DNA of 64,000 nt from Microbacterium sufflavum. GTDB taxonomy: Bacteria; Actinomycetota; Actinomycetes; Actinomycetales; Microbacteriaceae. Both the position numbers and the translations under genes were made by a program. The notes under the pieces were generated by a model, which was not told where the DNA came from, did no database searches, and saw nothing but the letters and a program-made list of their open reading frames with translations. The DNA is taken from contig NZ_CP078076.1 of assembly GCF_023101165.1 (NCBI RefSeq), positions 682,001 through 746,000 of the forward strand. The letters run 5' to 3'. Below are positions 5,625-19,324 of this stretch, in pieces (position 1 is the stretch's first letter; each line of letters starts with the position of its first letter).

Positions 5625-6758
5625 TCAGCGCGGGTCGGCGAAGAAGGCCCGGAGGTCGGCGGCGAGCAGATCGGGGCGCTCCAGCGCGGCGAAGTGCCCG
5701 CCCTCGTCGAAACGGCTCCAGTGCACGATGTTGTCGTTGTCGCGCTCGGCGAAGACCCGGATGGTCTGGAAGTCGTCCGCGAACACCGCGACCCCGGTCC
5801 GCGCGTGGTTGACCTGCGGCTCGGCCTCGGCGCGCGCGTTCTCCAGGTAACTGCGGCTCATGCCCGAGGCGGCGTTCGCGAACCAGTTCACGCTCACCTC
5901 CAGCAGGATGCTCTCGAGCGGCACGAGCGAGGTGCCGTTGCCGAAGGAGGTGAACAGCTCACTGTAGGCGAGGAGCCCGACCGGGGAATCGCTGAGGCCC
6001 ACCGCGACGGTCTGCGGACGGGAGGCGTTCATCGCGTTGTAGCCGCCCACCGACTGGAACCACTGCATGTGCTCCAGTCCCGCGTAGTCCTGCGGCTCGA
6101 GCTTCTCGAACTCCGCGGGGTCGCCCGAAGGGAACGAGAACAGCTGCAGCACGTGCAACCCGAGGAAGCCCTCCGGCGCCAGCAGCCCGAGCTCGCGCGC
6201 GACCATCGCGCCGTTGTCGGAGCCGTGGATGCCGTAGCTGTCGTACCCGAGGCCGCGCATGAGCCGGTCGTACGCGGCGGCGACCTTCCCCACCGTCCAC
6301 CCGGCGGAGGCGAGCGGCTGCGAGAAACCGTAGCCGGGGGCATCCGGGATCACGAGGTGGAACGCCTCCTCCGCGCGACCGCCGTGCGCCTCGGGGTCGG
6401 TGAGCCGGTCGATGAGGTCGAGGTAGTCGACGGAGGAACCGGGGTAGGTGTGTGCGAGCAGCAGCGGGGTCGCGTTCTCGTGCCGCGAGCGGATGTGGAG
6501 GAAGCGGATCGTCTGGCCGTCGATCTCGGTGGTGAACTGCGGGTGGGCGTTGAGCCGCTCCTGCGCGGCAGCCCAGTCGAACTCCTGCCACGCGGTCAGC
6601 GCCTCGCGCAGGAAGTGGTTCGGGGTGCCGGCGTCCCAGTCGTCGACGGGCGCGGTGCGGGGCAGGCGCGTGCGGGCGAGGCGGTCGCGGAGGTCGGCGA
6701 CCTCGGCGTCGGAGACGTCGACGGAGAAGGGGCGGAAGGCGAGGGTCGTGGTGTTCAT
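5625..6758 (-). CDS. Epoxide hydrolase (EHN domain plus alpha/beta hydrolase)
   Basis: The 377-residue protein opens with the epoxide-hydrolase N-terminal domain (F-x-V-D-V-S-D-A-E-V-A-D-L) and continues as an alpha/beta hydrolase. The oxyanion motif reads H-T-Y-P-G-S (103-108), the nucleophile elbow G-S-D-N-G contains Asp181, and the catalytic His is near residue 355 in E-G-G-H-F-A. Family members open epoxides through an aspartyl ester; the physiological substrate is unknown. A TATCGT hexamer lies 7 nt before the ATG, so the message may be leaderless. It is divergent from a WYL regulator, with an inverted repeat in the 67-bp gap, so that regulator probably controls it. Confidence 0.88.
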   Translation of the reverse strand: MNTTTLAFRPFSVDVSDAEVADLRDRLARTRLPRTAPVDDWDAGTPNHFLREALTAWQEFDWAAAQERLNAHPQFTTEIDGQTIRFLHIRSRHENATPLLLAHTYPGSSVDYLDLIDRLTDPEAHGGRAEEAFHLVIPDAPGYGFSQPLASAGWTVGKVAAAYDRLMRGLGYDSYGIHGSDNGAMVARELGLLAPEGFLGLHVLQLFSFPSGDPAEFEKLEPQDYAGLEHMQWFQSVGGYNAMNASRPQTVAVGLSDSPVGLLAYSELFTSFGNGTSLVPLESILLEVSVNWFANAASGMSRSYLENARAEAEPQVNHARTGVAVFADDFQTIRVFAERDNDNIVHWSRFDEGGHFAALERPDLLAADLRAFFADPR

Positions 6759-10786: not shown

Positions 10787-11476
10787 TCAGGCGGTGAACA
10801 GGTAGCCGCGCCCCGACTCGAAACCGGCGATCCGCAGACCGCTGCCGAGCAGACCCTCCATCTGCGCGCGCAGCCGCAGCCGCCACTCGTGCGCGGCCGC
10901 CGGGTCGGAGACCCGCATCGCCTCGATGTCGTCCGGGATCTCCAGGGTCTCCACGACGTCGCCGTCGGCCGGGGGCTTGGCGATGTCGGCCAGCGCCCAC
11001 TCGACATCGAGCCGGTCGCTTTCGTCGCCCGCGTCACCGCCGCCGAAGATGCCGTAGCGGTTCACGGAGTAGCCGGTGGCGCGGGCCCCGAGCACCGAGA
11101 AGAAGAAGTGCGCGTTGCGGGCCACGAGCGGGTCGAACACCCACGTGATGCGGCCGACGTCGCGCGAGAAGGCCCACTGCCGCTGGTGCTCCTTCAGCTC
11201 GCGACCCCAGCCGCGGCCGCGGTACTCCGGCAGCAGCGCCGTGATGTGCGAGTGCATCGCCCGGCGGGCCGGTTCGCCGAAGAACGCGATGGACGCACCG
11301 ACCATGCGCTCCTCATCGCCCTCGCCGTCGAAGAACCCGACGACGTAGTTGCCCGACTGCTGCAGGGCGCGGAGGGTGCCGGCATCGACCACGCGCTGCG
11401 GACCCCGGATGGAGTCGAGCAGGCCCTGCGCGTCGAGGATGAGTTCAACGGTGTCGAGGTCACGGATGGTACGCAC
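10787..11476 (-). CDS. GNAT-type acetyltransferase (COG3375-like)
   Basis: The 229-residue protein has a GNAT core: the acetyl-CoA loop is L-L-P-E-Y-R-G-R-G-W-G-R-E-L near residues 110-125, preceded by strands containing V-V-G-F-F-D-G and followed by V-F-D-P-L-V-A-R-N-A-H-F-F, typical of the predicted GNAT family COG3375. Substrate is unknown. I begin at the GTG giving V-R-T-I-R-D-L because a CAGACT hexamer lies 6 nt before it; the frame is open 31 codons further upstream without homology. The next gene upstream on the same strand (HIT-like) ends 49 bp away. Confidence 0.8.
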   Translation of the reverse strand: MRTIRDLDTVELILDAQGLLDSIRGPQRVVDAGTLRALQQSGNYVVGFFDGEGDEERMVGASIAFFGEPARRAMHSHITALLPEYRGRGWGRELKEHQRQWAFSRDVGRITWVFDPLVARNAHFFFSVLGARATGYSVNRYGIFGGGDAGDESDRLDVEWALADIAKPPADGDVVETLEIPDDIEAMRVSDPAAAHEWRLRLRAQMEGLLGSGLRIAGFESGRGYLFTA

Positions 11477-11525
11477 GGCTCCAGTCTGCCCCTCCACGGC
11501 GGGTTCGCGGAAACCCGGGCGGGCC

Positions 11526-12146
11526 TCAGCGGTACGGGAACGCCTCTCCCCCGCCCGCGGCGAGCGCATCGGCGACGATGCGGAGGTGCTCCGACGCCAT
11601 CTCGGGCGGCAGCGGGGGCAGGATCTCGTCCCAGAACGCGAGCACCGCGCCGCGCCCCTGCATCATGCCGGCGGGGCGCCCCATCGCCCACATGTGGAAG
11701 TGCGCGGAACCATCGTTCCAGCGTCCGAAGTGACAGCGGGCGACCCCGGGGACGCTCTTCACCGCCTGCGACACCCGCTGCAGCAGCGGGCCCAGCGCCG
11801 CGAGCACGTCATGCGGGGCGTCCTCGAGCAGCCAGTGCTCGCGCGGGGCGACGCCGCCGATGAACGGCAGGCCGCCGACGTCCCAGCCGGCGCGCACCTG
11901 CCAGAGGTCGTCGTGCCAGATCGTGTGCGGGCTCGGACCGCAGTGCCCGCACTCGCGCGGGTCGAGCTCCCCCGCCCTCGGCTCCTCCGGCACCAGCATC
12001 GGCTCGAGCGGTCGCATCGTCACCGTCTCGAAGGCCCACGGCAGACCGTCGGCGATCGCCGAGGCGTCGAGCACCTCTCCGATCGGCAGTCGGCGGTGGA
12101 ACGGGGAATCGGCCGGGTGCTGCGTGGGTGGGGCGTCGTCGCTCAT
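11526..12146 (-). CDS. HIT-like domain protein
   Basis: This 206-residue protein carries a late H-F-H-M-W-A-M-G motif resembling the histidine triad of HIT nucleotide hydrolases/transferases, in the context G-R-W-N-D-G-S-A-H-F-H, together with an earlier C-G-H-C-G pair. It lacks the full H-x-H-x-H-x-x triad (the third position is Trp), so catalysis is uncertain. Related actinobacterial proteins are annotated as HIT-like without known substrate. I begin at the ATG giving M-S-D-D-A-P; the frame is open far upstream across antisense DNA and should not be extended. It starts 32 bp after the lactate monooxygenase-like stop. Confidence 0.65.
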   Translation of the reverse strand: MSDDAPPTQHPADSPFHRRLPIGEVLDASAIADGLPWAFETVTMRPLEPMLVPEEPRAGELDPRECGHCGPSPHTIWHDDLWQVRAGWDVGGLPFIGGVAPREHWLLEDAPHDVLAALGPLLQRVSQAVKSVPGVARCHFGRWNDGSAHFHMWAMGRPAGMMQGRGAVLAFWDEILPPLPPEMASEHLRIVADALAAGGGEAFPYR

Positions 12147-12178: not shown

Positions 12179-13504
12179 TCACACGGCGCGCAGGGCATCG
12201 CGGTCGAGCTGCGCGACCGCGGTCAGCCCGGCGAGGCCGAGGGTGATGTCGAGCTCGGCGAGCACGTTCCGCACCACCTCGCGCACCCCCTGCTCGCCCG
12301 CGATGCCGAGGCCGTACGCGTAGGGCCGGCCGAGCGCGACCACCGTGGCGCCGAGCGCGAGGGCGATCGCGACATCGGCGCCGCCGCGCACCCCGGAGTC
12401 GAACACGATCGGCACCCGCCCGGCCATCCGCTCCGCGATCGTCGGCAGCACGTCGAGGGTGGGCACGGACCGGTCGATCTGGCGTCCGCCGTGGTTGGAG
12501 ATCCAGATGCCGTCCACGCCCGCGTCCAGCGCGCGCTGCGCATCGTCCGGGTGCACGATGCCCTTGAGGATGATCGGCAGCGTGGTCCACTCGCGCGCCT
12601 TCGCGAGGTCGTCCCACGTGAGCGCGGGGGTGGAGAACACGTCGAGGAACGTCTCGACGGCCGCCCGCGGCAACGGCGAGCGCAGGTTGTCGCGCAGGCG
12701 TCCGCCCTCGGTGAGGGCCGCGCCCTTCCTGGCGATGCTGAGCGCGGCGGCGACCGCCGTCGGGGTGACCTTCACCGCGGAGGCGTCGCTCTTCGGGGCG
12801 GCCGCCCGCTGTCGCACGAGCTCGCGGAACACGGGATCGCTGGTGTACTGCGCGATGCCCAGGCCCCGGGTGAACGGCAGGTAGGCGAGGTCGAGGTCCC
12901 GGGTGCGCCACCCCAGCAGGTGCGTGTCGAGCGTGACGACGATCGCCTCGCAGCCGGACGCCGCGGCGCGGGCGAGCAGGGAACGGTTCAGGTCGTCCGA
13001 CGACGACCAGTACAGCTGGAACAGCCGTGACCCGGACGGCGCGGCGGCCGCCACGTGCTCCATCGGGAGCGACGCCTGGTTCGACAGCGTGTACGGGACG
13101 CCGAGGGAGGCGGCGGCGCGGGCGACCGCACGGTCGGCGTCGGGGTGCGCGAGCTCCATGACCCCGAGCGGCGCGAGGATCAGCGGGCTCGTCCGTCGTG
13201 TCCCGAGGAACTCGACGCCGAGGTCGCGTTCGCTGACGTCGCGCAGCGGCCGCGGCCAGACCTGCCACCGATCGAACGCCGCCCGGTTCGCCGTCACCGT
13301 GTGCTCCGCTCCCGCACCCCCGGCGATGTACGCGAAGGCCTCGGCGCTCAGCGTCTTCCGCGCCGCCTCCTCCAGCGCGGCCGGAGCGACCGGGACGGCC
13401 GGTCGGGTGCCGCTGATCCCGGCGCGATAGATGTCGGACTGGGTACGCCGGGAGATGCCGCGGTGGGCGGCGGGATCGTCCGGAGCGACGCTGCTCGTGA
13501 CCAT
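12179..13504 (-). CDS. FMN-dependent alpha-hydroxy acid oxidase, lactate 2-monooxygenase-like
   Basis: This 441-residue TIM-barrel flavoenzyme would oxidise L-lactate or another 2-hydroxy acid. Family residues are visible: the FMN-binding Y-I-A-G-G-A-G segment, the A-P-L-G-V-M substrate strand, the V-T-L-D-T-H-L-L-G-W-R-x-R-D-L-D-L-A-x-L-P-F insertion typical of lactate 2-monooxygenases, the catalytic S-N-H-G-G-R-Q-I-D and the phosphate-binding F-D-S-G-V-R-G-G. Two starts are six bases apart; ATG 13504 is preferred because TAGCAT (13516-13511 on the minus strand) sits exactly 6 nt before it. It is divergent from an MFS exporter across 61 bp. Confidence 0.87.
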   Translation of the reverse strand: MVTSSVAPDDPAAHRGISRRTQSDIYRAGISGTRPAVPVAPAALEEAARKTLSAEAFAYIAGGAGAEHTVTANRAAFDRWQVWPRPLRDVSERDLGVEFLGTRRTSPLILAPLGVMELAHPDADRAVARAAASLGVPYTLSNQASLPMEHVAAAAPSGSRLFQLYWSSSDDLNRSLLARAAASGCEAIVVTLDTHLLGWRTRDLDLAYLPFTRGLGIAQYTSDPVFRELVRQRAAAPKSDASAVKVTPTAVAAALSIARKGAALTEGGRLRDNLRSPLPRAAVETFLDVFSTPALTWDDLAKAREWTTLPIILKGIVHPDDAQRALDAGVDGIWISNHGGRQIDRSVPTLDVLPTIAERMAGRVPIVFDSGVRGGADVAIALALGATVVALGRPYAYGLGIAGEQGVREVVRNVLAELDITLGLAGLTAVAQLDRDALRAV

Positions 13505-13565
13505 GACCACATGCTAGCCACGGCCGAACGGCCCCGCACCGCGCACGGGCCGATAGCCTGGGCCG

Positions 13566-15005
13566 GTGGGTGCGAGCGACGACAGAGCCAGGAAGCGCCT
13601 CTCCCGCACCCCGCCCCGGTGGGCGATCATCGCGGTGCTGGCCTTCGCGGGGCTGTGTTCGTCGTTCATGTTCACGCTCGTCGTGCCGCTGCAGGCCGAG
13701 CTGCCGCAGCTGCTGAACGCCTCGCGCGAAGACACCACGTGGGTCGTCACGATCACGCTGCTCGTCGCCGCCGTCGCCACCCCGATCTCGGGCCGCCTCG
13801 GCGACATGTACGGCAAGCGCCGCGTGGTCATCGTGCTGCTCGCGATCCTGATCCTCGGCTCCGTGATCGCCGCCGTGTCCGGCTCGATCGTCGGCGTGAT
13901 CATCGGCCGCGCCCTGCAGGGTGCCGTGACGGGCGTGGTGCCGCTGGGCATCGCGATCATGCGCGACGTGCTCCCGCCCGAGCGCCTGGGCACCGCGGTC
14001 GCCCTCATGAGCGCGACCATGGGCGTCGGCGGCGCGATCGGCATGCCCGTGGCTGCCCTGCTCGCCGAGAACGCCGACTGGCACATGCTCTTCTGGCTCG
14101 CCGCAGCGCTCGGCGTCGCCGGACTCGCGCTCGTGCTCGCGGTCGTGCCGGAAGACGTGCTCCGCTCCCCCGGTCGGCTCGACGTGCTCGGCGCCGTCGG
14201 CCTCGCGATCGGCCTCACCGGGCTGCTGCTCTTCGTGTCGCGCGGCGCCGAGTGGGGCTGGACGTCGCCCGTGACCCTCGCGTGCGTGATCGGCGGCGTC
14301 GCCGTGCTGCTGGTGTGGGGCTGGTACCAGCTCAGGACGAGGGATCCGCTGCTCGACCTGCGCGTGGCCGCGCGGCCCGCCGTGCTGTTCACCAACATCG
14401 CCGCGATCGGGATGGGCTTCGCCCTGTTCGCGTCGAACGTCACGTTCCCGCAGATGCTGGAGATGCCAGTGGTCGGCGGCGGCTTCGGGCTCGACATGGT
14501 CGCGGCCTCGCTCGTGATCATGCCGGCCGGCCTGGTGATGATGGTGATCTCTCCGCTGTCCGGCTGGCTGGAGCGCACCGTCGGACCGCGCCCCCTGTTC
14601 ACCGTGGGCGCGATCGCGATCGTGCTCGCCTACGTGTTCGTGCTGCTGTGGTCCACGGCCGTGTGGCACGTGTTCGTCGCGAACATCTTCATCGGCATCG
14701 GCATCGGGTTCACGTTCGCCGCGATGCCCATGATCATCATGCGCTCGGTGCCGGCGAACGAGACCGGCGCCTCGAACGGGCTCAACGCGCTGTTCCGCTC
14801 GGTGGGCACCTCGACCGCCTCGGCCGTGATGGGCGGGGTCCTCGCCGCCATGAGCGTCGACGTCGACGGGGTGGCCGTCCCCACGCGCAGCGCGTTCGAG
14901 GTGTGCTTCTGGCTCGCGATCGCGGCCGGGGTGCTCGCGGTCGTGCTGTCGCTGTTCATCCCGCGGCGCCGCGCCGCCGAGCAGCATCCGTCGCTGCCCG
15001 AGTGA
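13566..15005 (+). CDS. MFS drug-exporter-type permease (DHA2/EmrB-QacA-like)
   Basis: The 479-residue protein has about 14 hydrophobic helices, the number expected for DHA2 drug:H+ antiporters. Conserved MFS motif A appears as G-R-L-G-D-M-Y-G-K-R-R (around 75-85), and motif C-like G-V-G-G-A-I-G-M-P-V follows on helix 5. Substrate is not predictable. It starts with GTG; TAGCCT (13554-13559) lies 6 nt upstream, so transcription is probably leaderless. Its stop lies 17 bp from the first copy of a 55-bp repeat that marks the left edge of an inserted cassette. Confidence 0.9.
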   Translation: MGASDDRARKRLSRTPPRWAIIAVLAFAGLCSSFMFTLVVPLQAELPQLLNASREDTTWVVTITLLVAAVATPISGRLGDMYGKRRVVIVLLAILILGSVIAAVSGSIVGVIIGRALQGAVTGVVPLGIAIMRDVLPPERLGTAVALMSATMGVGGAIGMPVAALLAENADWHMLFWLAAALGVAGLALVLAVVPEDVLRSPGRLDVLGAVGLAIGLTGLLLFVSRGAEWGWTSPVTLACVIGGVAVLLVWGWYQLRTRDPLLDLRVAARPAVLFTNIAAIGMGFALFASNVTFPQMLEMPVVGGGFGLDMVAASLVIMPAGLVMMVISPLSGWLERTVGPRPLFTVGAIAIVLAYVFVLLWSTAVWHVFVANIFIGIGIGFTFAAMPMIIMRSVPANETGASNGLNALFRSVGTSTASAVMGGVLAAMSVDVDGVAVPTRSAFEVCFWLAIAAGVLAVVLSLFIPRRRAAEQHPSLPE

Positions 15006-15022
15006 CGCCCTCGGCGCGACGA

Positions 15023-15077
15023 GTCAGTGGGTGTACTCCATGAGCTCGACGCCCAGCACACGGAACGCGTCGTGCGC
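15023..15077. repeat. Direct repeat, left copy: displaced 3' end of the beta-lactamase-like gene
   Basis: This 55-bp segment matches 16283-16337 at 54 of 55 positions (A versus G at 15060/16320), in the same orientation and exactly 1260 bp apart. It encodes the last 18 codons and stop of the beta-lactamase-like gene on the minus strand, but here it is detached from the gene. It marks the outer junction of the cassette that lies between the copies, like an attachment-site remnant. Confidence 0.92.
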
Positions 15078-15113
15078 GAGCCTCTCCAGTCTGTGCGCTG
15101 CGTGCGGGCCGGA

Positions 15114-15308
15114 TCAATGGCGAATGCGACCCGATTGAGACCAGAGGACGTAGGTCACAACCCAGAATCCGGCATCGATTGCGAGCACGGACAGCAACTC
15201 GATCGATGCAGCCCAGAGCCCTACCGCAACGAAGAATCCCTGAAGGACGACGATCGGTGCGATGACAAGTGTCGCGAACAGCGCCGGCCTCATTCGTCTC
15301 CGTTTCAT
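15114..15308 (-). CDS. Small two-TM membrane protein, partner of secreted protein
   Basis: The 64-residue product begins with a basic cluster (M-K-R-R-R-M-R) and has two predicted membrane helices, about residues 9-32 and 37-58, with a short basic tail. Its ATG overlaps the stop of the upstream secreted-protein gene (ATGA), so the two are produced together. A small basic two-helix membrane protein coupled to a secreted protein is the layout of many bacteriocin-immunity or toxin-immunity pairs. That is only an analogy; I recognise no family. Confidence 0.65.
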   Translation of the reverse strand: MKRRRMRPALFATLVIAPIVVLQGFFVAVGLWAASIELLSVLAIDAGFWVVTYVLWSQSGRIRH

Positions 15309-16075
15309 CGCTGGCAACTGAATCCAGTCGGCCCGACCAGCGGATAGATCCTCATCTGTCGGTTGTACGGGCATACCCCATTGGCGACGATGATTCCCAC
15401 GATCATTGCGATCACAGCGGCACCGACGCCGCAACCGACACCGGCGGTGGTCGGCGCGAGCAGCGCACAGATCGCTGCGACCAACGCACCAGATGCGCCG
15501 GTCACCATTGCCTGTTGCTCGGCATTCGTGAGCTGGATGTACGGCCAGGGGTCAGCACCGCCAACCACCGCCGCCCTCATGAGGCCGCGGACCGCACTTC
15601 CCGCGGCCAGAGCCGTCGGAAAGACGATGGTCATCCCGGGCGCGAGCTCATAGGTGGAGACGACGCCATTGCGATCGATCTCCACCGACGAGGGTGCGTT
15701 CGTTTCTCGGAGTCCGTCGCGCAACTCTGCAAATGCCTCACTCAGTTCGGCGGGGCTTGCGCCAGCCTCTCCCAGAGACACAACCGCGAGGAACGCCTGC
15801 CCTTCGTCGCTGTTCAAGACCTCGCTCGGCACTGCAGCGAGATCAAACCGGTGCGCGTCGTGGTCGTAGGCGGCCACGAGTTGATTGATCCGCGATACAA
15901 GCGCATTGATCGATGCGTCCCCGCCCACCGCTCCTGCGGGAGGGGCACCTGCGACGCTACCGCTCGTTTTCGGCGTCGCCGCCACGTCTTCTCGCGCGCT
16001 GGCGGGCGACACCGTCGCGAGTGCCGTGCAAAGTACGACGGCAGCGCCGAGGAACATCTGCAAACCCCGCCTCAT
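15305..16075 (-). CDS. Secreted protein with Cys-containing hydrophobic C-terminus, unknown function
   Basis: This 256-residue protein has a clear Sec signal peptide (M-R-R-G-L-Q then a hydrophobic core, cleavage after S-P-A-S-A near residue 27). The mature part has an Ala/Gly-rich linker and a helical domain (about 55-150). The C-terminal 60 residues are a Gly/Ala/Ile-rich hydrophobic stretch with four cysteines, ending N-G-V-C-P-Y-N-R-Q-M-R-I-Y and S-C-Q-R. The mixture of hydrophobic GxxxG-like segments and cysteines suggests membrane insertion or disulphide-bonded hairpins. A GGAAGG ribosome-binding site is present, and the start overlaps the stop of a 17-codon leader ORF. No family is recognised; a secreted antagonistic or adhesive protein is a guess. 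Confidence 0.75.
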   Translation of the reverse strand: MRRGLQMFLGAAVVLCTALATVSPASAREDVAATPKTSGSVAGAPPAGAVGGDASINALVSRINQLVAAYDHDAHRFDLAAVPSEVLNSDEGQAFLAVVSLGEAGASPAELSEAFAELRDGLRETNAPSSVEIDRNGVVSTYELAPGMTIVFPTALAAGSAVRGLMRAAVVGGADPWPYIQLTNAEQQAMVTGASGALVAAICALLAPTTAGVGCGVGAAVIAMIVGIIVANGVCPYNRQMRIYPLVGPTGFSCQR

Positions 16076-16125
16076 TGGTCGACCTTCCCGCTCGATCCCG
16101 GGACCCCGAAATCCGTTGAGCGCAT
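16072..16125 (-). CDS. 17-residue leader ORF coupled to the secreted protein
   Basis: An ATG with an excellent Shine-Dalgarno (AAGGAG, about 6 nt upstream) opens a 17-codon frame ending in TGA that overlaps the ATG of the secreted-protein gene (ATGA). The peptide is M-R-S-T-D-F-G-V-P-G-S-S-G-K-V-D-Q. Its ribosome-binding site is stronger than that of the downstream gene, so ribosomes probably load here and restart. It could be a regulatory leader peptide, an expression-coupling device or a small functional peptide. It is too short to judge by codon use. Confidence 0.5.
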   Translation of the reverse strand: MRSTDFGVPGSSGKVDQ

Positions 16126-16189
16126 GCTGATCTCCTTGAACTCTTCGGGCGCACCCGCATCGAGTTTGGACGAAGGGTGAGCTCAGTGG

Positions 16190-16223
16190 ACATGTAGAGT
16201 GTTACATGTCATGCGTCACATGT
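16190..16223. promoter_or_regulatory. Three ACATGT palindromes at 14-bp spacing (putative operator array)
   Basis: ACATGT occurs at 16190, 16204 and 16218, each exactly 14 bp apart, upstream of the cassette operon. A longer imperfect inverted repeat (GTGGACATGT versus ACATGTCTGTCCAC) spans the array. Evenly phased palindromic hexamers suggest cooperative binding of a regulator. No regulator is encoded in the cassette. Confidence 0.5.
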
Positions 16224-16282
16224 CTGTCCACCTTTCGGAGGACATGAGTGGCTGGTTCGTCGAGAGCTGCCCTGCCGGTCGC

Positions 16283-16337
16283 GTCAGTGGGTGTACTCCA
16301 TGAGCTCGACGCCCAGCACGCGGAACGCGTCGTGCGC
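16283..16337. repeat. Direct repeat, right copy: native 3' end of the beta-lactamase-like gene
   Basis: This copy is continuous with the gene body and supplies its last 18 codons and stop; the repeat begins one base beyond the stop codon. The partner at 15023-15077 is 1260 bp away with one mismatch. A duplicated gene 3' end that keeps the gene intact is the pattern left when elements integrate at 3' ends. Confidence 0.92.
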
Positions 16338-17249
16338 ACGCAGGCGGTGCGTGATCGACAGGTCGTCGAAGCACACGATGAGCGCGTAGCCGACGCCCGC
16401 GCGCGGTCCCGCCAGCACGCCCGCCTCGGCGCGGACACCGCGGTCGCGGCCGGTCTTGTTCACGAACAGCAGCCCGTGCGCGTCGTGGTCGTGCGCGAAC
16501 GGGTCGAGCCCGGTCGCGGAGGCCACCAGACTCAGGTCCTGGTTGAGGCTCAGCCACTCGGCCACCTGCGCGCTCACCGCGGCGTCGACCACCTGGGAGT
16601 TGACGAGCGCGGAGAACAGCCCGGCGAACTCGCGCGCCGACCCCACCGCCACCTGCGGCGCGTCGTCGGGGCCCCGGCGGTCGCGGAACCGGTCGAGCAG
16701 CGCGGTGCGGCGCAGGCCGAGCCCCTCGATGCGCTCGCGCACCCGGTCGTGCCCGACCTTGTCCAACAGGATGTTGACCGCGATGGGGTCGCCCGCGGTC
16801 GCGGCCAGCACCGCCAGATCTTCCAGCGGCAGCGCGGGAGCCCGCAGGTGCCGCCACAACCCGGACGACTCGACCGCGTCGACGCTCGCGCGCTCCACGA
16901 TCTCGAGCGGGTCGAGCGCTCCGGACTCGAACGCCGCCGCGACCTCGATCAGCAGCGGGACGACCCCGAGCCCGCCGACGGGCATGGTGACGTGGTCGTC
17001 GCCCGCCAGGACATGCACGTGCGAGTCGAGGTCGACCACGTGCACCGACACCTGGGCGCCCGCATCGGCCAGGCCCTCGAGAGCCTTGAGCGTGGCCGTG
17101 AACGACCGGCGGCCGAGGGCGGCCCGACGGGGCAGACGACGGCTCGTGCGCTGCTGCGAACGGCGCCCGCTCGATGACGCGGACGCGCCTCCCATCGACT
17201 CGGGGACCGGGGAGTTCCGGAACCCGTCGCCAGGCTCGAGTGCGGCCAC
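16284..17249 (-). CDS. Beta-lactamase-like protein with lost catalytic serine (pseudoenzyme)
   Basis: The 321-residue protein aligns with class A beta-lactamase-fold serine hydrolases: K-T-G is intact (265-267, in V-N-K-T-G-R-D-R-G), and the P-x-x-S-x-x-K-x-P active-site helix is recognisable as P-V-G-G-L-G-V-V-P (90-98). However, the nucleophile Ser is Gly93 and the general-base Lys is Val96, and the S-D-N loop reads G-D-P (153-155). It should therefore not hydrolyse beta-lactams; a binding or regulatory role is more likely. There is no clear signal peptide; the N-terminus is Ser/Arg-rich. It starts at GTG with a GAAGGA ribosome-binding site. Its 3' end is the insertion point of the adjacent cassette. 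Confidence 0.78.
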   Translation of the reverse strand: MAALEPGDGFRNSPVPESMGGASASSSGRRSQQRTSRRLPRRAALGRRSFTATLKALEGLADAGAQVSVHVVDLDSHVHVLAGDDHVTMPVGGLGVVPLLIEVAAAFESGALDPLEIVERASVDAVESSGLWRHLRAPALPLEDLAVLAATAGDPIAVNILLDKVGHDRVRERIEGLGLRRTALLDRFRDRRGPDDAPQVAVGSAREFAGLFSALVNSQVVDAAVSAQVAEWLSLNQDLSLVASATGLDPFAHDHDAHGLLFVNKTGRDRGVRAEAGVLAGPRAGVGYALIVCFDDLSITHRLRAHDAFRVLGVELMEYTH

Positions 17250-17359
17250 GCGTGATCCTTCGGGAGGGGGCTGATCGGCATGCCAAGGGAGTCGCTCCCC
17301 AGCGGCAGGGCTATCGTAACCCCACCGCCGGGGGACACCTCACAGCCTGAGGAGAATGG

Positions 17360-19324
17360 TCACCAGATGGTCACCCGCGACGCCTCGGGCAGCCACAGGG
17401 CATCGTCCGGCGTCACGTCGAAGGCCTCGTAGAACGCGTCGATGTTGCGCACGATCTGGTTGCAACGGAACTCGTTGGGCGAGTGCGGGTCGATCGTGAG
17501 CAGCCGCAGCGTCTCCGCCTCCCGGCTCTTCTGCTGCCAGACCTGCGCCCACGACAGCAGCAGCCGCTGCACGCCCGTGTAGCCGTCGATGACCGGCGCC
17601 TCCTGCCCACCCAGCGACAGCTCGTACGCCTGGAGCGCGATGCCCAGACCGCCGAGGTCGCCGATGTTCTCGCCGATCGTGAGGGCGCCGTTCACGTGAT
17701 GCTCCGCGTCCAGCCCCTCAGGGACGAGCTCGTCGTACTGGGCGATCAGCGCCTTGGTGCGCTCCTCGAACGCGGCACGGTCGGCGTCGGTCCACCAGTC
17801 CTGCAGACGTCCGTCGCCGTCATAGCGGCTGCCCTGGTCGTCGAAGCCGTGACCGATCTCGTGTCCGATGACCGCGCCGATGCCGCCGTAGTTCGCGGCC
17901 GCGTCGCGACCCGCGTCGAAGAACGGATACTGCAGGATCGCGGCGGGGAAGACGATCTCGTTCATCGACGGGTTGTAGTACGCGTTGACCATCTGCGGCG
18001 GCATGTGCCACTCGGTGCGGTCGATGGGCCTGCCGACCTTGTCGATGTTGCGGTCGTGCTCGAAGGTCGCCGCGCGACGCACGTTGCCGAGCAGCTCCTC
18101 GCGGTCGATCACGAGGCTGGAGTAGTCGCGCCACACCTCGGGGTGGCCGATCTTGGGCGTGAACGCGTCGAGCTTGGCGAGCGCACGCTGCCGGGTCTCC
18201 GCCGTCATCCACTCCAGCGTCTCGATGCTCTGCCGGTACGCCTCGATGAGGTTGCCGACGAGCTCGTCCATCGCGGCCTTCGCCGTCGGCGGGTAGTGCC
18301 GCTCGACGTACACCTTGCCGATCGCCTCGCCGAGCGCGCCCTCGGTGACCGAGACGCCGCGCTTCCAGCGCTCCCGGATCGTGGGGACGCCGGTGAGCTC
18401 GGTGCCGTAGAACGAGAAGTTCTCCAGCACCAGGTCGTCGGTCAGGTAGGGCGCGGCGGCGTGCACGACCTTGGCGCGCAGCCAGGCCTTCCAGTCGTCG
18501 AGGCGCTCGGCGGTGAGCAGCGCACCCAGCCCCTCGAAGAAGCTGGGCTGCGACACGACCACCTCGTCGAACGCGGAGGGGTTCGACGGCGTGACGGCCT
18601 CGCGCCACGGTGCGAGGTCGACGCCCGCGAGCTCCTGCAGCTCGTCCCAGGTCTTGAGGTTGTAGGTGGCGACCGCGTCGCGGCTGCGCACGTTGTCCCA
18701 GTGGTGGCCCGCGAGCTCGGTCTCCAGGGCGATGGAGCGTTCGGCCTGGTCCGCGGCGTCGGCGATGCCCGCCAGGGACAGCAGGCGCTCGAGGTGGGCG
18801 CGGTACGCGGCGCGCGTGTCGGCGAAGGTGTCGAGGCGGAAGTAGCTCTCGTCCGGCAGCGACAGCCCGGCCTGCACGAGCACCGGGATGTAGCGCTCCG
18901 GGTCTCCCGGGTCGCCGTCGACGTAGAGGCCGATCACCGCGGCGCGCCCGTCACGGTCGTACGCCCCCACGGTGCGCAGGAAGCCGGGGATGTCGGCGAT
19001 CGCGTCGATCTCGGCGAGGGTCTCCGCGAGCGGCGCGACCCCGGCGGCCGCGATGCGGTCGGTGTCCATGAAGCTCGCGAACAGGTCGCCGATCTTGCGG
19101 GCGAGCGTGCCCTCCTCGGCGTCCTGCGACTCCTCGATGATCGTGCGGACGTCTTTCTCCGCCTGCTCGGCCAGCAGGTGGAAGGAGCCCCAGCGCGCCT
19201 TGTCGCCGGGGATCTCGGTGCGGGAGATCCAGGCGCCGTTCACGTGACGGTACAGGTCGTCCTGCGGGCGGATGTCGGGGCTGAACTCGTCGAGGGCAAG
19301 GCCCACGGGAAGCGCGTCGGTCAT
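17360..19324 (-). CDS. pepO: M13 family zinc metallopeptidase (neprilysin/PepO-like)
   Basis: This 654-residue zinc endopeptidase has the M13 catalytic H-E-I-G-H (488-492), the third zinc ligand in G-E-N-I-G-D (Glu near 552), the substrate-binding N-A-Y-Y-N-P segment and the family ending V-T-I-W. Length equals that of complete M13 enzymes. There is no signal peptide or membrane anchor, so it is probably a cytoplasmic oligopeptidase such as PepO, which degrades short peptides. ATG 19324 is favoured because TAGGCT (19337-19332, minus strand) lies 7 nt before it; the open extension upstream has no homology. Confidence 0.93.
   Translation of the reverse strand: MTDALPVGLALDEFSPDIRPQDDLYRHVNGAWISRTEIPGDKARWGSFHLLAEQAEKDVRTIIEESQDAEEGTLARKIGDLFASFMDTDRIAAAGVAPLAETLAEIDAIADIPGFLRTVGAYDRDGRAAVIGLYVDGDPGDPERYIPVLVQAGLSLPDESYFRLDTFADTRAAYRAHLERLLSLAGIADAADQAERSIALETELAGHHWDNVRSRDAVATYNLKTWDELQELAGVDLAPWREAVTPSNPSAFDEVVVSQPSFFEGLGALLTAERLDDWKAWLRAKVVHAAAPYLTDDLVLENFSFYGTELTGVPTIRERWKRGVSVTEGALGEAIGKVYVERHYPPTAKAAMDELVGNLIEAYRQSIETLEWMTAETRQRALAKLDAFTPKIGHPEVWRDYSSLVIDREELLGNVRRAATFEHDRNIDKVGRPIDRTEWHMPPQMVNAYYNPSMNEIVFPAAILQYPFFDAGRDAAANYGGIGAVIGHEIGHGFDDQGSRYDGDGRLQDWWTDADRAAFEERTKALIAQYDELVPEGLDAEHHVNGALTIGENIGDLGGLGIALQAYELSLGGQEAPVIDGYTGVQRLLLSWAQVWQQKSREAETLRLLTIDPHSPNEFRCNQIVRNIDAFYEAFDVTPDDALWLPEASRVTIW

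Follow-up and report, generated by a model that had tools for sequence, protein, structure and literature searches.

Several described systems resemble the locus reported here. Cis-mobilizable remnants (CIMEs) and integrative elements at the 3′ ends of genes are flanked by direct repeats, and the target gene regains its 3′ end from one of the copies. Minimal mobile elements of Neisseria are integrase-free cassettes of whole genes that are exchanged between conserved neighbors by homologous recombination; to our knowledge, no duplicated gene end surrounds those cassettes. In Campbell insertions and homology-facilitated illegitimate recombination, foreign DNA is inserted and a homologous stretch is duplicated (109 to 950 bp in PMC3240628), although these are rare, plasmid-selected laboratory events.

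The cassette analyzed here lies in a 64,000-nucleotide stretch of the Microbacterium sufflavum genome (the window; genome G000). It shares with CIMEs the flanking direct repeats and the restored gene end, but it carries no integrase gene, no tyrosine recombinase is encoded within ∼44 kb in G000, and it and its relatives have repeats of 39 to ∼170 bp that lack a common core, around inserts of ∼0.9 to 1.7 kb. Like the Neisseria elements it is integrase-free, but it has a duplicated gene end, and unlike the laboratory insertions the cassettes are natural and recurrent, mostly around one class of cargo. The best overall explanation, to which we assign a probability of roughly 0.7, is that the window cassette is a foreign, integrase-free, target-duplicating unit and one of a recurrent set of such insertions in Microbacteriaceae. 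What is new here is a target-gene-preserving insertion with no recombinase in the element and a target duplication that is both long and variable; the insertion type itself is known. In titles and the starts of abstracts from open-license PMC literature, no description of this footprint was found.

The direct repeats have the same orientation and are identical at 54 of 55 positions, exactly as an earlier note on this DNA had reported; extended to 15020–15077 and 16280–16337, they match at 56 of 58. The repeat consists of the final 17 sense codons plus the stop codon of the beta-lactamase-like gene (54 nt, 16284–16337) and one further base, rather than the 18 codons plus stop counted previously, a figure of 18 being reached only if the stop codon is included. 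The right copy completes the 321-aa target gene and the left copy is an orphan, again as first described: it starts 17 nt past the stop of the major facilitator superfamily (MFS) transporter gene (15005) and is part of neither adjacent gene. That the right copy runs on into the beta-lactamase-like gene and the left copy into ancestral MFS intergenic DNA is the arrangement predicted by insertion with target duplication. Scanning of 464 kb of G000, window included, for direct repeats (spacing 600–2500; score of at least 26) returned six pairs, four of which look by eye like paralogous coding motifs, while the other two correspond to the window cassette and one other cassette. The same scan of 29 beta-lactamase loci from other Microbacterium genomes (110.7 kb) returned 0 pairs, and together these scans argue that the window repeat is not a chance match. 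The repeat is coding sequence without a strong hairpin. No tRNA was identified in the window, and an Rfam search of window positions 13000–18000 gave no structured RNA match that could have served as the target.

Table 1. Positions of the window cassette, its flanking genes and related units (window coordinates unless a locus is named)
Feature	Position	Strand	Remarks
MFS transporter, convergent, far side of the insertion	13566..15005	+	PF07690
Left repeat copy, orphan	15023..15077	-	Outer side runs into ancestral MFS intergenic DNA; empty site of G005 (L039) used for comparison at the junction
Inserted cassette, 1,205 bp	15078..16282	-	GC 63.0% versus 71.9% in the 3-kb flanks
64-aa hydrophobic protein, about two transmembrane (TM) segments, putative immunity protein	15114..15308	-	ATGA overlap with the stop of the 256-aa gene
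256-aa secreted protein, putative bacteriocin-like precursor	15305..16075	-	Signal-peptide-like N terminus; C-terminal domain hydrophobic, rich in Gly/Ala, with conserved Cys
Perfect 8-bp inverted repeat GACATGTA-6 nt-TACATGTC, possible operator	16189..16210	.	Upstream of the operon
Right repeat copy, 3′ end of the beta-lactamase-like gene in place	16283..16337	-	54/55 versus left copy
Beta-lactamase-like protein, target gene, 321 aa	16284..17249	-	Pfam Beta-lactamase2 PF13354, 101 bits, 7.9e−29
Cassette at the terminator downstream of an OpuC-like binding protein	L123:3843-5619 (G000 C1 about 1,162,990-1,164,770)		Repeat of ∼62 bp
Cassette at the end of a DAG-kinase-like gene	L173:13693-15675 (G000 C1 1,673,693-1,675,675)		Repeat 121/121
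Cassette between two MarR genes	L190:7065-8589 (G000 C1 357,065-358,589)		Repeat 71/72
Insertion at the leuS 3′ end	L291:12885-14499 (G520)		Repeat 56/59; found in a 400-kb scan of G520

The earlier note had proposed comparison with related Microbacterium genomes, in which an empty site would carry one repeat copy, and such a site was found in a congener (G005, L039), where the beta-lactamase and MFS genes are directly adjacent, with a single repeat copy and no cassette. Given this site, it is well supported that the window cassette is a foreign insertion with target duplication that spared the target gene. The conspecific genome G160 carries the same insertion (L003; 99.1% DNA identity over 3,770 columns), with repeat copies identical at 57 of 58 positions. 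Two outcomes named in advance as contrary to insertion were not what was found: the cassette is not shared by all relatives, the 256-aa protein alone as query having matched 6 of 198 genomes of the genus (G000 and G160 among them), and neither the G000 nor the G160 copies have diverged in the manner of an ancient duplication. In a different order of events, the gene end would already have been duplicated in tandem and unrelated DNA would have entered between the copies later. Short tandem duplications do arise at staggered breaks in human and mouse cells (PMC8355091). At the junctions examined, however, the relatives had a single copy without a cassette and none had two copies without one, so that this order of events appears very improbable. 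In several other relatives (loci L037, L038, L040 and L044), what appears by eye to be a small conserved gene lies between the beta-lactamase-like and MFS genes; it is absent from G000, G160 and G005.

The lower GC content between the repeats, pointed out at the start, was borne out, as was, for tyrosine recombinases, the lack of a recombinase: no tyrosine-recombinase match was identified in the window. Hydropathy, sequence and the ATGA overlap indicate both a probable secretion signal and a small linked membrane protein in the cassette. Four relatives of the 64-aa protein were aligned, with 36 to 47% identity. The 256-aa protein matched nothing above the curated cutoffs of Pfam or NCBIfam and nothing in PHROGs; for the secreted proteins of the cassettes, likewise, no Pfam or NCBIfam match exceeded the curated cutoff and none in PADLOC or PHROGs was convincing. 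An AlphaFold model of the 256-aa protein built from a 19-row alignment was weak (pLDDT 68.6; pTM 0.40) and, compared with the PDB, gave no match below an E value of 1.2; a search by sequence yielded no PDB chain below 0.03. Read from its anatomy, the gene pair may encode a bacteriocin-like precursor and its immunity protein. As in secreted bacteriocins that are paired with a small immunity protein in the membrane, a signal peptide, a hydrophobic Cys-bearing C terminus, an adjoining small TM gene and a patchy distribution are found together; unlike in those systems, the secreted proteins of the cassettes have no curated family match, and the likeness is one of anatomy.

The search at other loci that the earlier note had suggested revealed related units with the same footprint, including three more in G000 (L123, L173 and L190). 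Three of the four G000 units were found by scanning ∼35% of the genome and L123 through protein similarity. Direct-repeat scans of G000 made regardless of cargo (464 kb and a further 800 kb) recovered the window cassette, L173 and L190, apart from seemingly paralogous repeats and one further locus, L208, where a perfect 29-bp direct repeat (L208:4456-4484 and 5932-5960; 1,476 bp apart) lies near Tat-signal-like secreted genes. In every G000 unit, a small membrane protein is encoded alongside a secreted one. Besides a 147-aa secreted protein and a membrane protein, L173 carries a TetR regulator, and in L190 two overlapping frames divide the secreted part between them. The 72-bp duplication at L190 covers the whole intergenic region.

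Two of these three sites are empty in the conspecific G160. Its MarR site has one 72-bp copy, equal to the left copy of G000 and one base off the right copy, between flanks of ∼99% identity, and its binding-protein site also has a single copy; at the DAG-kinase site, both genomes carry the cassette. In more distant comparisons, the gene end runs straight to its neighbor at the DAG-kinase and binding-protein sites of G002, G022 and G005 and at the MarR site of G002, G022 and G004. The ∼675 bp that follow the right copy at L123 in G000 contain a lipoprotein-like reading frame and are absent from G160; the right copy is thus not the outer edge there. A remnant of the 256-aa protein family was identified at the binding-protein site of G023. 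At the MarR site of G005 (L240), other DNA follows the terminator and a second MarR match lies ∼2.7 kb farther on; a different insert may be present here. Because empty and occupied versions of a site can be paired within one species, the mechanism of entry is directly testable.

The insertion at the 3′ end of leuS in G520 carries a 359-aa CBS-domain protein with a GC content of 50.6% in a 75% GC setting. This protein had no PADLOC match and is possibly a defense gene. With its different cargo, the leuS unit indicates that the footprint is not restricted to bacteriocin-like genes. A repeat at L296, obtained in the control scans, was discarded as a cassette mark; by eye it looks paralogous.

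Among 44 loci encoding members of the 256-aa family, 9 were bracketed by direct repeats (score of at least 28, within 900 bp on each side), versus 1,846 of 200,000 length-matched random intervals (0.92%; binomial P = 2.6e−10 with loci taken as independent, although the 44 likely include the same old insertion in sister genomes, and paralogous repeats were judged by eye). The random intervals came from 1.664 Mb of G000, G520 and the window, control DNA that itself includes the G000 cassettes (window, L173 and L190) and the leuS cassette of G520. The bracketed loci were found in G000 (two), G520 (two), G100, G072, G295, G231 and G284. The 44 loci are what remained of 50 curated rows after L118, the same insertion in a conspecific, and the weak L160, L161, L162, L163a and L163b had been set aside; 13 weaker matches without 4-kb flanks lie outside this set. 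No strict bracketing repeat was present at the other 35 loci, and the weaker repeats that a gapped search identified at L147, L148, L155 and L159 are counted among these misses.

Leaving out the G072 repeat (L125), the repeats correspond to a terminator or to a gene 3′ end, the gene being either upstream and codirectional or downstream and convergent (the latter at L132 in G520 and L151 in G284). The 11 inserts compared are 861 to 1,714 bp long, and each has a GC content 5 to 24 points under that of its flanks. No core is common to all 11 repeats; eight 8-mers recur in subsets of three or four, and exact matches between pairs of repeats reach at most 12 bp (counts made without a shuffled baseline). 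Among the 22 sixty-base insert ends, no 8-mer is common to three or more and no end motif was identified. A weak common signal among the repeats could nonetheless be present.

These features bear directly on the involvement of a recombinase. The earlier note had supposed an element mobilized in trans or a remnant. Such an element could be a CIME, whose repeats would be the attL and attR sites of tyrosine recombinases acting in trans or since lost. The geometry agrees, with direct repeats and a restored gene 3′ end; elements of this kind often use gene 3′ ends and have repeats of 8 to 60 bp (PMC5704250), and G000 contains five tyrosine-recombinase (PF00589) matches. The nearest of these, however, is the one ∼44 kb away, measured from any of the four G000 cassettes, and repeats of 112, 121 and 139 bp, together with the 72-bp repeat that spans an entire intergenic region, exceed the usual range. 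A different repeat at each cassette, without a common core, is better explained by duplication of an arbitrary target than by a site-specific recombinase. Neither mobilization in trans nor a remnant of an integrase-bearing element is well supported, and we consider this origin of the units unlikely.

Integron-like gene cassettes with attC-type sites were also considered, the inserts being small, of one or two genes, and 7 of the 11 repeats folding by eye as strong hairpins. Against the attC consensus as it is generally given, however, the R core and its inverse were missing in 9 of the 11 repeats and never occurred in both copies, and the window repeat, being coding, forms no strong hairpin; integron attC sites were rejected on these grounds and an integron origin is scarcely credible. 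A DDE transposon was likewise rejected, with no shared end motif and a duplication that is neither short nor fixed. More generally, a fixed-stagger transposase, an integron or a single dedicated integrase does not fit well.

At the window locus, a foreign two-gene unit probably inserted immediately downstream of the beta-lactamase-like gene and, in doing so, copied 55 to 58 bp of the target, which is why the gene kept its 3′ end and why an orphan copy lies at the far edge. The incoming DNA may have been caught in a staggered break whose ends lay 40 to 170 bp apart; fill-in of both overhangs would then copy the target, and end joining by Ku would seal the capture. Such capture would account for both the arbitrary targets and the variable length of the duplications. 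Ku was identified in 13 of 15 genomes tested, all of them cassette genomes, with no match in G295 (39/39 repeat) or G221 (weaker repeat, L147). We propose this mechanism tentatively, with less than even confidence.

Single-crossover (Campbell) integration would leave the same direct repeats if a nonreplicating circle with the cassette and a short stretch of the target recombined with the chromosome; an earlier excision between the repeats, in a different strain, might have supplied such a circle. The duplications from E. coli cited above, seen in 14 sequenced clones of single crossovers with a circular conjugated plasmid (PMC3240628), show that the process yields repeats. The DAG-kinase site offers two further points in its favor. 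One base of the repeats is T in both G160 copies and C in both G000 copies, as if the copies exchange, although this is one site; and 121 identical base pairs are followed by ∼30 bp that differ at several positions, a mosaic that suits a crossover between slightly different strains and is unexpected from clean simultaneous duplication unless gene conversion acted. Campbell integration nevertheless accounts for spread more readily than for origin: the end of the host's own gene has to be on the circle beforehand, and eleven unlike targets would each require a matching circle. As the source of the cassettes it is somewhat unlikely. Something other than capture, a single crossover or a trans-acting integrase is less likely still. 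On present evidence we lean slightly towards staggered-break capture for the origin of the cassettes and towards ordinary recombination for their spread and loss: recombination in the flanks would carry them between strains, and recombination between the repeats would remove them.

A small insert enclosed by a long duplication of its target is a footprint that can be counted, and it bears on how small accessory genes enter bacterial chromosomes with no integrase or transposase nearby. The footprint may also point to a family of uncharacterized secreted proteins, putative bacteriocins. It is conceivable, although we would not yet favor it over the alternatives taken together, that Microbacteriaceae gain small antagonism cassettes, possibly also defense cassettes, by integrase-free capture that duplicates 40 to 170 bp of the target, and that the resulting reservoir of small insertions spreads via the flanks and leaves without a scar via the repeats.

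With a profile of 19 relatives of the 256-aa protein, matches, some of them weak, were found in 15 of 247 genomes from the genus, 32 of 398 from the family and 6 of 296 from the class, in draws that overlap and take in the window's own genome. Phage records contained no relative of the cassette, and neither did two scans of genome contigs, from which records near this genome may be absent. An Arthrobacter plasmid carries one distant match, with 37% identity across 55%. In G004 (L005), a cassette relative that lacks long repeats lies between homologues of two neighboring genes of the window (10787-11569 and 11526-12123).
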